The translations under genes were made by a program, and so were the position numbers. This document shows, one piece after another, positions 14,474-17,243 of a DNA stretch of 20,186 nt (positions are counted from its first letter, which is position 1; every line of letters starts with the position of its first letter). Below the pieces are notes generated by a model. The model was not told the origin of the DNA, did not search any database, and worked only from the letters and a program-made list of their open reading frames with translations. Origin of the DNA: a virus; IMG/VR virus record IMGVR_UViG_3300029442_000017, positions 8,782 to 28,967 of that record; one strand, written 5' to 3'.

Positions 14474-14656
14474 TTATATAACTTTTTTACCATCTGCTGG
14501 CTTTTCAACTCTCATGCCGCCAAAAGCAGCTTTAGCAGCGCCTGACAAACCACCCAACTGAGAATAACGTGGAGTATTAACTACTACGCCATTTTTCTGG
14601 TTGTTGTCTGTAGGTCTACGTGGTTGAGAATTACCTCTGGGTTTGTATAAATCCAT
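14474..14656 (-). CDS. Small basic protein of unknown function (60 aa)
   Basis: The ATG at 14656 is preceded by AGGAG about five bases upstream and lies 12 bases from the stop of the upstream gene, so translation is well supported. The sequence is basic and likely disordered in the first half (MDLYKPRGNSQPRRPTDNNQ), with a short conserved-looking stretch later (YSQLGGLSGAAKAAFGGM). No membrane segment, signal peptide or motif of known function is seen. It sits in the head-gene block between the Gly/Met/Pro-tailed protein and the scaffold-like gene, so a small assembly factor or structural component is possible. Confidence 0.75.
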   Translation of the reverse strand: MDLYKPRGNSQPRRPTDNNQKNGVVVNTPRYSQLGGLSGAAKAAFGGMRVEKPADGKKVI

Positions 14657-14668
14657 GATTACTCCTGT

Positions 14669-15154
14669 TTACATTGCGGGTGGGGGCATACCTGGTGGCA
14701 TACCGCCAGGTGGGGGAGGCATACCACCGCCAGGTGGCATACCAGGAATTGGTGCATTAGCCATCGCTTTACCTTCAGGTGTTCCCCCGCCAGCTTGCGG
14801 TAGTGTTTGCAACATCTGAAGAATCTCTGACTGTTGAAGTTCATTTGTCTTGTTTTTACGTGCACCCAAGACTTTATTGATTGCACTTATTGCGCTTAGA
14901 GCTGCTTTACCTTCTTCGGTATCTGAGCCAAGTGCAGGTAAGGATTGCTCAAGTAAATCCTGAGCCATGCCTAAGTTAATTTTTGCTGCTTCTTTAGAAC
15001 CCATCTTAGGTTCTGGAGTAGTCATTGGCGAAGCCATTGGAGGAACTTCAGCATCAGACATATTTGCCCCAGGTGGGGGCGCATTAGGGACAGGAGCACC
15101 AGCGGACCTTGGTCCACCCATTAACTCCATTAACTTATCTGACGGAACACTCAT
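14669..15154 (-). CDS. Head-region protein with Gly/Met/Pro-rich tail (161 aa)
   Basis: The ATG at 15154 has a perfect AAGGAG five bases upstream. After a Pro/Ala-rich N-terminus, residues 50-115 form one or two helices (AAKINLGMAQDLLEQSLPAL and GKAALSAISAINKVLG). The last 30 residues are nearly all Gly, Met and Pro (PGMPPGGGMPPPPGGMPPGM), coded by a repetitive DNA tract. The gene opens the head block and follows a promoter-like pair and two stem-loops. The position between portal and scaffold suggests a head assembly or structural role. No family is assigned. Confidence 0.8.
   Translation of the reverse strand: MSVPSDKLMELMGGPRSAGAPVPNAPPPGANMSDAEVPPMASPMTTPEPKMGSKEAAKINLGMAQDLLEQSLPALGSDTEEGKAALSAISAINKVLGARKNKTNELQQSEILQMLQTLPQAGGGTPEGKAMANAPIPGMPPGGGMPPPPGGMPPGMPPPAM
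14685..14743 (-). repeat. In-frame GGTATGCC repeats coding Gly-Met-Pro
   Basis: Four copies of GGCATACC (plus strand), starting at 14685, 14697, 14718 and 14736, are spaced in multiples of three and code GMP units in the protein tail. Such a tract can change length by slippage. Confidence 0.8.
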
Positions 15155-15169
15155 ATTTTCTCCTTGCCC

Positions 15170-15193
15170 TAGTTTGTAACCACTTACAAACTA
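15170..15193 (-). repeat. Perfect 10-bp inverted repeat just before the head-gene start
   Basis: TAGTTTGTAA (15170-15179) and TTACAAACTA (15184-15193) are exact complements around a four-base centre (15180-15183). The site ends 16 bases before the ATG at 15154. It could be an operator or an RNA hairpin; no T-run follows on the minus strand. Confidence 0.85.
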
Positions 15194-15201
15194 TTTGTCA
15201 A
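15173..15201 (-). promoter_or_regulatory. Promoter-like TTGACA-17-TACAAA pair before head genes
   Basis: Minus strand TTGACA (15201-15196, exact sigma70 -35 consensus) is followed after exactly 17 bases by TACAAA (15178-15173, 4 of 6 consensus). Transcription would start near 15166, leaving about 12 bases before the ATG and keeping the ribosome site. The -10-like hexamer lies inside one arm of the inverted repeat, so regulation by a dimeric binder is possible. The weak -10 limits confidence. Confidence 0.35.
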
Positions 15202-15206
15202 TAGGG

Positions 15207-15234
15207 TGGGCAGTATTTTACGACATACTGCCCA
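15207..15234 (-). repeat. Perfect 10-bp stem-loop in the long intergenic interval
   Basis: TGGGCAGTAT (15207-15216) and ATACTGCCCA (15225-15234) pair exactly with an 8-base loop. The stem is strong, half G/C. No T-tract follows on the minus strand, so it is not a classical terminator. It may mark an mRNA processing or stability site between the packaging and head genes. Confidence 0.8.
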
Positions 15235-15251
15235 ATGTCGGTTCATTTCAA

Positions 15252-15263
15252 GGGGTTGCCCCC
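15252..15263 (-). other. Short GGGG-GCAA-CCCC stem-loop after the 11-codon ORF
   Basis: On the minus strand GGGG pairs with CCCC around a GCAA tetraloop, seven bases after the stop of the 11-codon ORF. It is short but GC-rich and closed by a GNRA-type loop, and is the first of three stem-loops in a row on the transcript. Confidence 0.45.
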
Positions 15264-15386
15264 AAGAAATTACTTACGCTTGTGTTTACGAGCTTTACGT
15301 GCCATGAGATTTCTCCTTTAGCAGCGGTCACCTACTTATGAGGGGAGGCAGCCACACCCTTTTTCTTTCTCAAGAAATTATCTACG
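15261..15386 (-). repeat. Duplicated 18-base tail shared by the two tiny basic ORFs
   Basis: The ends of both tiny ORFs and the bases after their stops match in 15 of 18 positions. The copies are 15261-15278 and 15369-15386 (plus strand CCCAAGAAATTACTTACG and CTCAAGAAATTATCTACG). On the minus strand both read CGTA, two bases, TAATTTCTTG. This suggests the ORFs arose by tandem duplication. Confidence 0.7.
15270..15305 (-). CDS. Tiny polybasic ORF (11 aa, MARKARKHKRK)
   Basis: The ATG at 15305 is preceded by AAAGGAG at the proper distance, one of the best ribosome sites in the window. The product MARKARKHKRK has eight Lys/Arg residues plus one His in 11. It lies in a stretch with no other gene. 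If made, it could bind nucleic acid or an acidic surface, or the ORF could act as a leader whose translation controls the downstream head genes. Too short to compare with families; translation is inferred from the ribosome site and from the similar neighbouring ORF. Confidence 0.5.
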   Translation of the reverse strand: MARKARKHKRK

Positions 15387-15422
15387 AGTCTTGCGACCTT
15401 TTTTACCGTATCTGTGCATCAT
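15378..15422 (-). CDS. Tiny polybasic ORF (14 aa, MMHRYGKKGRKTRR)
   Basis: Two adjacent ATGs (15422 and 15419) follow an AAGGGA site at good spacing. The product MMHRYGKKGRKTRR has eight Lys/Arg residues in 14. The stop and following bases match those of the 11-codon ORF downstream, so the pair look like duplicated cassettes. It lies 19 bases after the 56-residue basic protein. Function unknown: a DNA-condensing or packaging-associated micropeptide, or a regulatory leader, are both possible. Confidence 0.5.
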   Translation of the reverse strand: MMHRYGKKGRKTRR

Positions 15423-15441
15423 GATTGTTTCCCTTGGTTAA

Positions 15442-15612
15442 TTAACTTCTGGCGTAGTTACGCTGTGTTCTACCGCCAGATGAAACTTTAATCCCAGTAG
15501 TTCTTGATGTCAAGCCTGGACCTGAAGTTTGTTTGCGTAAAGTTTCTGTCGTCACCCGTGGCTGGTCTGCTTTGGGCGATGTTTGTGGTCCACCTACACT
15601 TTTTGTAGCCAT
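15442..15612 (-). CDS. Small basic Gly/Thr-rich protein after portal (56 aa)
   Basis: The ATG at 15612 overlaps the portal TAA by one base (TAATG), and the last portal codons contain a near-perfect AAGGAGG four bases upstream, so translation is strongly supported. The sequence begins MATKSVGGPQTSPKADQPRV and ends SSGGRTQRNYARS. It is basic, low in hydrophobic residues and probably unfolded alone. It heads a run of three small basic ORFs between the portal and head genes. Function is unknown; binding to DNA or to the portal/capsid interior would fit its charge. Confidence 0.75.
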   Translation of the reverse strand: MATKSVGGPQTSPKADQPRVTTETLRKQTSGPGLTSRTTGIKVSSGGRTQRNYARS

Positions 15613-17243
15613 TATCCCTCCTTCTTAGCGCCAGGGGCTTTGTGTTGTTTGTGTTCACCAGGAGGCTGCTGTGGCTGTGCAGCTTGCTTGGCCTCCATTT
15701 GTTTCAATCTTTCCAAGAGTTCTTCTTTCATTGGTGGCTCTATTAAATCAAGTAAAGATTTTTTGTCAATAGCCCCTGCCTTGAGTAAGTTGAACGCCAG
15801 TGTGCGGGTGTCTTCCGTAAATATCGGGCTGTTTGAATGTCCGTCCACTTTAACCGTAAATTCTTTGGTGAATTGCTCGGCAATGAAAGGTACACCGTGC
15901 GTATCTTTGAGGTGGGTATCATCATAAAGTTGCATACACTTTAGGTAAAGGGTTGCTAGTTTTTCCAATGAATCTTCAATTATTAGCGCTCGTTTTTTAA
16001 CTCTTGATGACCCCAGTCGAGCTAACTGGCTTGCGTGTCCTGCTGACCTAACTCCTGCTTCTCCTTTACCTTGGAGAACGTTGCCCACGCCAGATGCTTC
16101 TTCAAACATAGCGTCTATTTCACGCATCTCTGTAAACAAATCTGGAGGCATAGTTGGTGCTAATTTTTCTACTTTAGCGTTAGGCATATCTGTGGATAAC
16201 AATCCCCCTGCACGGTTGAGTGCAAAGTTTTTCTCATCCAGTATTCCTGTGAACCCAATCAAAGCGGTTGGAGGAGAAACTTGTTTTGACAATAAGTCAA
16301 GAATCTCCGTCATCCGTCTGTTGCGTAACTGTTGAAGGTATATGAGGCGCTGTACTTCAGAAGCGCCCCAATAGTAGTCGTACAGTGGGTTAGGGCAAAT
16401 CTGAATAAAGGGTAACTCACCCTTCATAAACATTTCTTCGCCTGAACGCTCATAGATAATGATGTCTGGGTCTGCTTTGGTGACAACTCTATAATCCGCT
16501 GCCTCGTCATCCCAAATCCACAACTCGGTCATCTCTACCGTATCTTCTGAGACTTCTGCTTTGTATCTATTGCCACCAGCCAAATCCAAGTTAACGTTAC
16601 CGTAGATAGTGGGGTTAGACTGAGAAATAATAATGCGTTCAAGTCCGTTGGCAATTTCTGTCCTCTCGTGGGGCATGGAGTTCATGCGATGAATAATCTT
16701 GTCCCTGTTTGGATGGCTGTACAGCCTAGTGTATAACTCAGACTTGGTAATGTAATATTTTTGAATCAGGGCTTCTTGCCTGTCAGTGTACGTAATGTCC
16801 TCACGCAACACACCTACACAACCAGGCTCTACCATGTACGGGTGGATTCCGTTGTTCATAATGAGCTTGACGTAAGTTGTTCCGTAAACAAGCGCCCAAG
16901 TAGTAGCTGTAGAAAAAACTTGGTCAGCGTTGCTATTTAACCACTCATTGTTGAGTGATTTTGTCAACGTTGGGATTTTTCTGTGTTCATTATCGTGAAC
17001 AGACGCCCCCAAGTTAATGGAAAAACGGGTGGTCTCAGCCGAGTACAGGAAAGAAGTTACCTGGTCTAAGTGAGGAAATATTTTGTTGTAGAGTGCAGGA
17101 GCCTCGTCAGGCCCGTTACCAAAGAGATACCAGTTTCTCAGGGAGGCGTAATCTACCTTCCTAGAGTTTAAAGACACTTCACATTTGTAAATGATGTCCC
17201 TAAAGAACTCATCTCTGTCTAGCATCCCCTTTGGTATTTTCAT
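15612..17243 (-). CDS. Portal protein (543 aa)
   Basis: The portal is the dodecameric ring through which the terminase pumps DNA into the head. The ATG at 17243 has GGAG upstream and lies two bases past the preceding stop. Length and order (terminase, two small genes, portal, scaffold, capsid) are as expected. The segment at residues 279-310 (PFIQICPNPLYDYYWGASEV then QRLIYLQQLRNRR) is the usual portal core, in which a Pro/Tyr/Gly loop leads into a Gln/Asn/Arg helix. Residues 381-435 (EEASGVGNVLQGKGEAGVRS then a long helix) match the stem/crown region. Residues 510-543 are Gln/Pro/Lys rich and probably flexible. No protease domain or fusion is seen. Confidence 0.88.
   Translation of the reverse strand: MKIPKGMLDRDEFFRDIIYKCEVSLNSRKVDYASLRNWYLFGNGPDEAPALYNKIFPHLDQVTSFLYSAETTRFSINLGASVHDNEHRKIPTLTKSLNNEWLNSNADQVFSTATTWALVYGTTYVKLIMNNGIHPYMVEPGCVGVLREDITYTDRQEALIQKYYITKSELYTRLYSHPNRDKIIHRMNSMPHERTEIANGLERIIISQSNPTIYGNVNLDLAGGNRYKAEVSEDTVEMTELWIWDDEAADYRVVTKADPDIIIYERSGEEMFMKGELPFIQICPNPLYDYYWGASEVQRLIYLQQLRNRRMTEILDLLSKQVSPPTALIGFTGILDEKNFALNRAGGLLSTDMPNAKVEKLAPTMPPDLFTEMREIDAMFEEASGVGNVLQGKGEAGVRSAGHASQLARLGSSRVKKRALIIEDSLEKLATLYLKCMQLYDDTHLKDTHGVPFIAEQFTKEFTVKVDGHSNSPIFTEDTRTLAFNLLKAGAIDKKSLLDLIEPPMKEELLERLKQMEAKQAAQPQQPPGEHKQHKAPGAKKEG

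Follow-up and report, generated by a model that had tools for sequence, protein, structure and literature searches.

Two adjacent micro-genes in the head cluster of a short-tailed phage, micro-ORF A and micro-ORF B, encode arginine- and lysine-rich peptides of 14 and 11 residues. Comparison with the sequences of relatives indicates that both are almost certainly protein-coding genes, selected as peptides, in a large uncultured family of freshwater phages. The window, by which we mean the whole 20,186-nt stretch of DNA analysed here, is a fragment of this phage taken from a 28,967-bp IMG/VR virus record. Terminase, portal and adaptor genes identify it as a tailed double-stranded DNA phage, and in profile searches the portal and adaptor match the Pfam families SU10_portal and SU10_adaptor. 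On the minus strand, the head cluster runs in the order TerL, portal, p56, micro-ORF A, micro-ORF B, a 161-aa gene, p60, a 176-aa gene that its position suggests is scaffold-like, and the major capsid protein (MCP). A and B occupy the 287-nt gap (15155–15441) between p56 and the 161-aa gene, with the following features.

15612–17243, minus strand: portal gene, matched by the Pfam SU10_portal profile.
15442–15612, minus strand: p56, a 56-aa basic gene of net charge +8 upstream of A, read from the sequence.
15430–15435, minus strand: Shine–Dalgarno-like AAGGGA of A (AGGAG or AAGGA in relatives), from the sequence and relatives.
15378–15422, minus strand: micro-ORF A, MMHRYGKKGRKTRR, 14 aa plus stop, kept in 204 of 209 distinct intervals.
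15313–15318, minus strand: Shine–Dalgarno AAGGAG of B, from the sequence and relatives.
15270–15305, minus strand: micro-ORF B, MARKARKHKRK, 11 aa plus stop, kept in 204 of 209 distinct intervals.
14669–15154, minus strand: 161-aa gene downstream of B, the first head-operon gene after its own promoter, without a family match.

The first-pass annotation had described two polybasic ORFs with ribosome sites that follow a 56-residue basic protein; the ORFs and both sites are present, and p56 lies directly upstream. Another small basic protein, p60 (60 aa, net +7; 14474–14656, minus strand), sits between the 161-aa and scaffold-like genes, and p60, p56, A and B are thus four small basic products around the portal–scaffold junction. 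Neither p56, p60 nor the 161-aa protein has a PHROGs or Pfam profile match, and a 24-aa variant of B likewise has none (scan length of at least 20 aa).

Chance rarely produces such ORFs. With an ORF defined as 10–16 aa long, at least 50% K/R and started by an ATG with a Shine–Dalgarno (SD) motif, dinucleotide shuffling of the gap gave a single one in 2 of 3000 trials and two in none of 3000, and A and B are the only ORFs of this kind on both strands of the 20-kb window. For comparison, we gathered relatives by portal and capsid queries, independently of the micro-ORFs. The resulting ~380 loci, mostly freshwater viral contigs, gave 209 distinct portal-to-161-aa intervals. Automatic scanning detected two and only two K/R-rich micro-ORFs preceded by an SD motif in 183 of the 209, and the remaining intervals were inspected individually. 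Both micro-ORFs are present in 199 intervals, only A in five (L161, L315, L316, L352 and L360) and only B in five (L258, L262, L265, L305 and L307); one micro-ORF can go, never both. Losses read off the drawn portal tree, whose bootstrap values are rough, place the absence of A in three separate lineages and that of B in two.

The retained genes are recognizably the same across the family. A always starts with ATG and B with ATG or GTG, and an SD-like motif precedes 201 copies of A and 203 of B. The consensus of A is M-Y-K-x-x-K-R-G-R-K-T-R-R; that of B is M-(A)-R-K-x-R-K-G-R-K-x-R-K or the shorter M-A-R-K-A-R-K-H-K-R-K. Lengths range from 10 to 24 residues, mostly 10–15, with longer versions of B (up to 24 aa) in one clade. 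In the gathered loci, which include some fetched by codon pattern alone, all 563 of 563 matches to the A and B codon patterns adjoin the portal or 161-aa genes of this phage family. IUPAC scans of the viral collection with each pattern revealed no copy away from these genes among the matches listed (at least 120 for each). The GenBank relatives MW202753 and MW202825 both carry A and B. We found no cultured relatives of the phage; no comparable K/R micro-ORFs occur in MCP relatives at ~27% identity (BUCT555, ppBjS10J-1 and Mx8) or in the TerL relative HP1.

Several observations concern the wider genomes of these phages. A Betaproteobacteria-1 RNA (RF02932, 90.7 bits) is found in the genome of a close relative at L385:15361-15480 (minus strand), and another relative, L162, sits within a betaproteobacterial MAG, which together point to a betaproteobacterial host. 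The initial 9 kb of the phage record yielded a single tRNA, tRNA-Lys(UUU) (L384:3719-3792; G000, outside the window), and the same tRNA stands alone in the initial 19 kb of a close relative (L385:9367-9442); it is a curious companion for lysine-rich micro-genes. L162 also contains a sub-threshold match to a type II hammerhead ribozyme (L162:548-596, minus strand; 28.7 bits, gathering threshold 37).

Selection on A and B follows the reading frame. The 13-residue variants of A show an in-frame pN/pS of 0.39 against about 1.7 (1.65 upward) in both other frames, and for B the values are 0.24 and 0.31 in frame and 2.6–6.1 out of frame. The last arginine of A does not change in any of 80 distinct sequences despite being written as CGT, CGG, AGA, CGC or CGA, codons drawn from both arginine boxes, and Lys 10 of A is invariant with the codons AAG and AAA. 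Spacer residues vary, but the register of K/R is maintained. The 78 distinct A peptides all have a net charge of +6 to +8 and the 27 distinct B peptides one of +7 to +8, and an acidic residue appears in only one of the distinct A and B peptides. Conserved RNA structure and promoters abound in the interval, as might be expected if the ORFs were not coding and were by-products of conserved RNA or DNA signals. We nevertheless regard that explanation as very improbable, given the contrast in pN/pS between frames (0.24–0.39 versus 1.65–6.1), codon switches that preserve K/R, the constancy of charge, and changes in length that involve whole codons only, with ATG and SD kept.

The first-pass annotation had offered real arginine/lysine micropeptides as one interpretation and had named broken frames, lost ribosome sites or amino-acid-blind drift in relatives as signs against it. 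With frame-specific purifying selection, constant charge and retention of ATG and SD in ~200 distinct relatives, the coding claim survives this comparison. It was also correct in supposing that gene finders leave out genes this small: A and B are unannotated in MW202753 and MW202825, where the only GenBank annotations over the micro-ORF region are opposite-strand hypothetical CDSs (MW202753.1:4740-5038 and MW202825.1:25683-25943), which are probably spurious. The pseudoknots and embedded promoter of the same region had been missed. These elements, together with the post-stop hairpins and a second promoter, are as follows.

15485–15513, minus strand: Sigma70-like promoter embedded within p56, TTGACA-N17-TAAAGT, from the sequence and synonymous constraint.
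15362–15377, minus strand: hairpin immediately 3′ of the A stop, from folding; present in 91 of 120 distinct relatives.
15326–15360, minus strand: pseudoknot PK1, from covariation, a shuffle test and a chimera test.
15245–15270, minus strand: hairpin at the B stop, AUUUC..GGGG-GCAA-CCCC..GAAAU, with a fold z of −3.7; present in 85 of 107 distinct relatives.
15207–15240, minus strand: pseudoknot PK2, with S1 CGACA/UGUCG, L1 U, S2 UGGGCAGUA/UACUGCCCA and L3 UAAAA, from energy and relatives.
15171–15201, minus strand: promoter of the 161-aa gene, TTGACA-N17-TACAAA, overlapping the palindrome AGTTTGTAAGTGGTTACAAACT; TTGACA is present in 190 of 209 distinct relatives.

Many compensatory changes among relatives argue that PK1 and PK2 are very probably real, conserved RNA structures, and what is conserved is their shape, not their sequence. 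In the window, S1 of PK1 pairs AGGG with CCCU (15360–15357 with 15344–15341) and S2 pairs GGCUGCCU with AGGUGACC (15353–15346 with 15333–15326), with one C-A mismatch and two G-U pairs. This is a weak copy: in addition to its mismatch, it is not the top-scoring pseudoknot and its nested fold is no stabler than those of shuffles. In relatives, S1 takes the forms CGGG/CCCG, UGGG/CCCA, GAGG/CCUC, GGGG/CCCC and CCGG/CCGG, and S2 the forms GGCUGCUU/AAGUGGCC, GGUUUCUC/GAGAAACC and others. PK1 covariation is 0.306 versus 0.129 in shuffled sequences, with 0 of 500 shuffles as high. Across 33 sequences, 89.9% of PK1 cells pair versus 80.3% in shuffles, 39 cells are changed on both sides versus 11.5, and the signal is lost when the partner strand is slid.

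PK2, with the linear order CGACA-U-UGGGCAGUA-UGUCG-UAAAA-UACUGCCCA, is the strongest H-type pseudoknot in the window (−27.5) and forms in 58 of 58 diverse relatives, using 19 different S1 and 44 different S2 stems. Its mean energy, calculated by simple stacking without loop penalties, is −24.6 for native sequences versus −10.2 for chimeras of non-matching left and right halves. The MAFFT alignment of PK2 was structurally poor, so pair counts were not taken from it and shuffle and chimera tests were used instead. Pseudoknot energies of −20 or below occur for PK1 in 48% and for PK2 in 67% of 66 diverse relatives, compared with 2–3% of shuffles; p56 coding controls never reach this level (0%). 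In the hairpin after A, the stem is variable and the loops are mostly of GNRA or C-GNRA type; after B, loop types differ widely and many are not GNRA. A simple post-stop hairpin is missing in about a quarter of sequences.

Searches with Rfam gave no match in the window at the gathering threshold, none in the region at E ≤ 10, and none at the hairpin or pseudoknot elements of relatives; a single sub-threshold SNORD52 match in L343 probably reflects chance. The minus strand has no intrinsic-terminator site (a stem plus U-run), and the sequence after PK2 is ACCCTATTGACA. A candidate third micro-ORF between A and B (MAASP..) was rejected. Its ‘codons’ make up the 5′ arm of PK1, and as a frame it either remains open or closes irregularly, so we attribute its conservation to RNA structure.

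The order micro-ORF, hairpin, pseudoknot is present twice, as A-hairpin-PK1 and B-hairpin-PK2. Where B has been lost, PK2 stays and the stop codon of A is joined directly to it; where A has been lost, the hairpin and PK1 stay and the stop codon of p56 lies directly before them. From these layouts, whatever stop codon remains, the RNA element comes after it. Extra small genes occur at cassette boundaries in L266, where a gene of ~50 codons lies between A and PK1, and in L078, between portal and p56, which suggests that these junctions tolerate recombination.

A and B are probably paralogous, judging from the C-terminal pattern common to the two peptides (GRKTRR/GRKSRK) and the shared order of ORF, hairpin and pseudoknot; convergence instead of duplication could also have produced the likeness. 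The first-pass annotation had proposed duplication of a unit from a string that follows both ORFs, CGTA-NN-TAATTTCTTG. The string is literally there and is not kept in many close relatives (for example, L023 and L095). Because TAATTTCTTG forms the 5′ arm of the post-stop hairpin in the window and is absent in many close relatives, the match is weak evidence for duplication, and we replace it with the shared cassette layout.

In relatives, the promoter embedded in p56 reads TTGACA-N17-TAAARN. Leucine at this site is encoded by TTG in 128 of 130 cases versus 45 of 167 elsewhere in p56, and threonine by ACA in 108 of 115 versus 202 of 517, counts whose Fisher values are not true probabilities because the sequences are related. 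From this codon bias, nucleotides at the site are constrained beyond the needs of the protein. The promoter is kept in most relatives and lost in an L001-like clade, in which the site reads ATGCAR. The TTGACA box of the 161-aa gene comes a few bases after PK2. The palindrome over this second promoter, which is possibly an operator, is usual in relatives and differs in sequence by clade while remaining palindromic (in L162, TTTACTTT-CACG-TAAAGTAAA). As sequences, both putative promoters are conserved. Given a promoter inside p56, A-hairpin-PK1-B-hairpin-PK2 can be read as a short transcription unit of its own.

This layout bears on whether the micro-ORFs could be cis-acting leader peptides, whose basic nascent chains would stall or slow the ribosome at the stop codon and, with the hairpin or pseudoknot, tune B or downstream genes. 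A and B are short enough to remain inside the ribosome tunnel, a stable hairpin abuts each stop codon, and PK1 is just upstream of the ribosome site of B. A is upstream of B in the proposed transcript, but in 190 of 209 relatives a promoter that belongs to the 161-aa gene intervenes after B and PK2. Moreover, either micro-ORF can be lost while the RNA elements and downstream gene remain, and it is the entire K/R pattern that is conserved, not a few residues near the stop. We therefore think a leader function quite unlikely, and the earlier suggestion of translated leaders that tune the head genes loses ground, as the promoter of the 161-aa gene is downstream of both ORFs.

Peptide and RNA could also be partners. 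In such a model, which we consider unlikely, A and/or B would be Arg-rich peptides that bind the GNRA-type hairpins or the pseudoknots and regulate their own or the head mRNA at the level of stability, translation or transcription, in the manner of lambda N at boxB. Each cassette does pair a basic peptide with a hairpin and a pseudoknot, many post-A hairpins have GNRA or C-GNRA loops, so that an Arg-rich peptide adjoins a GNRA-type RNA hairpin as in lambda N/boxB, and the pseudoknots share a T4 gene 32-like geometry (PMC3014915). However, stem sequences vary freely (19 S1 and 44 S2), post-B loops are diverse and the simple hairpin is missing in about a quarter of sequences, leaving little sequence for a peptide to read; the conserved, peptide-read loop of lambda N/boxB is not found here. 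In addition, loss of A leaves PK1 in place and loss of B leaves PK2, so that, in contrast to lambda N/boxB, either of two partners adjacent in cis can be lost alone.

Judged by geometry, the nearest RNA is the T4 gene 32 pseudoknot, an autoregulatory translational operator that precedes the start codon of its gene by 67 nt (PMC3014915). The T4/T2 gene 32 pseudoknot and PK2 of the window are alike, in geometry only, in having stems of 5–6 and 7–9 bp, a 1-nt L1, an A-rich L3 and a position upstream of a phage gene. By contrast, there are two pseudoknots here, each after a micro-ORF stop, and they have no sequence similarity to that of gene 32. PK1 is upstream of ORF B and PK2 is upstream of the next gene’s promoter, and PK2 is therefore not in the leader of mRNAs begun there. 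No single-strand-binding protein gene was recognized near PK1 or PK2.

We propose that the selected product of A and B is the peptide itself, a short, unstructured polycation of net charge +6 to +8 that is almost surely disordered. First, the peptides would be made late in infection from the short unit that starts at the promoter inside p56. Second, they would act in trans, at high copy and in a partly interchangeable manner, by binding nucleic acid during head assembly, where they could neutralize the charge of packaged DNA; alternatively, they might keep the phage's nucleic acid and its acidic head proteins orderly. Finally, the hairpin and pseudoknot after each micro-cistron could act as a physical RNA barrier, independent of sequence, by which the short mRNA is insulated or stabilized. 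We put this account of abundant late polycations that bind nucleic acid in head assembly, with insulating or stabilizing RNA folds, at a little below an even chance. In it, we infer timing, abundance, nucleic-acid binding, presence in the head or virion and the role of the RNA folds. Several observations count against it: a conserved net charge would suit whatever target is a nucleic acid or an acidic protein, SU10 and phiEco32, which are tailed phages whose portals are related, manage without such peptides, the embedded promoter is not kept in the L001-like clade, and the window has only a weak copy of PK1.

A DNA-neutralizing or packaging-linked role, as the first-pass annotation had suggested, is plausible. 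Nearest in kind are protein J of the Microviridae and VP8 of gokushoviruses, short Arg/Lys-rich peptides important for DNA packaging (PMC11281519). Like A and B, J and VP8 are short, rich in arginine and lysine, little conserved beyond charge and encoded among capsid genes, and a similar duty for A and B would be the neutralization of packaged DNA. J and VP8 are longer (38 residues for SpV4 VP8, compared with 10–24 for A and B), and their C-terminal residue is buried in the capsid, whereas the C terminus of A and B is itself basic. They guide single-stranded DNA in microviruses, whereas A and B belong to a double-stranded DNA tailed phage with a terminase, and there is no homology.

The kuraviruses SU10 and phiEco32 share portal and adaptor families with the phage, as well as the order TerL, portal, small gene, scaffold and MCP. 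In contrast, their genomes are 77 kb, their portal-to-next-gene gap is 9 nt and that next gene overlaps the scaffold gene, leaving no room for micro-ORFs; A and B are therefore a trait of this freshwater family and not of SU10-like phages at large. Restriction of the peptides to one phage group would also suit a host-directed role, in which they act late in infection on an acidic or nucleic-acid surface of the host, such as the ribosome, nucleoid or an RNase. Small phage proteins often target the host (reviewed in PMC11323111), and polycations bind many host targets. On the other hand, A and B lie in the head cluster, between portal and head operon, and not in an early region, and their sequences suggest no host target. 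We find such a role rather improbable.

With respect to what is already known, a worldwide survey of phage genomes predicted small-gene families in more than 40,000 groups (Fremin et al. 2022, as cited in PMC10356776). As far as that citation describes them, they resemble A and B in being unannotated small phage genes recognized by selection, and A and B may be among them. Unannotated small phage genes and basic packaging peptides are of a known kind; for the cassette architecture with its pseudoknots, our literature search found no description. More tentatively, and with considerable doubt, we suggest that the cassette may constitute an undescribed expression unit: a dedicated short late transcript, begun inside a neighboring gene, that encodes two interchangeable polycations of 10–15 residues, with a separate hairpin and pseudoknot closing off each cistron.

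More broadly, A and B indicate that stable genes for proteins of just 10–14 residues can persist under selection throughout a large phage family and yet be invisible to gene finders and profile libraries. There is a practical consequence, as annotators of these freshwater phages now get spurious opposite-strand genes at the A/B site. About 200 natural variants of the micropeptide–pseudoknot cassette are available for testing the roles of the peptides and pseudoknots. If the proposed functions are correct, A and B would rank with the shortest conserved peptides known to condense the genome or serve assembly in tailed phages, and the pseudoknots would be a new class of sequence-independent RNA boundary element.
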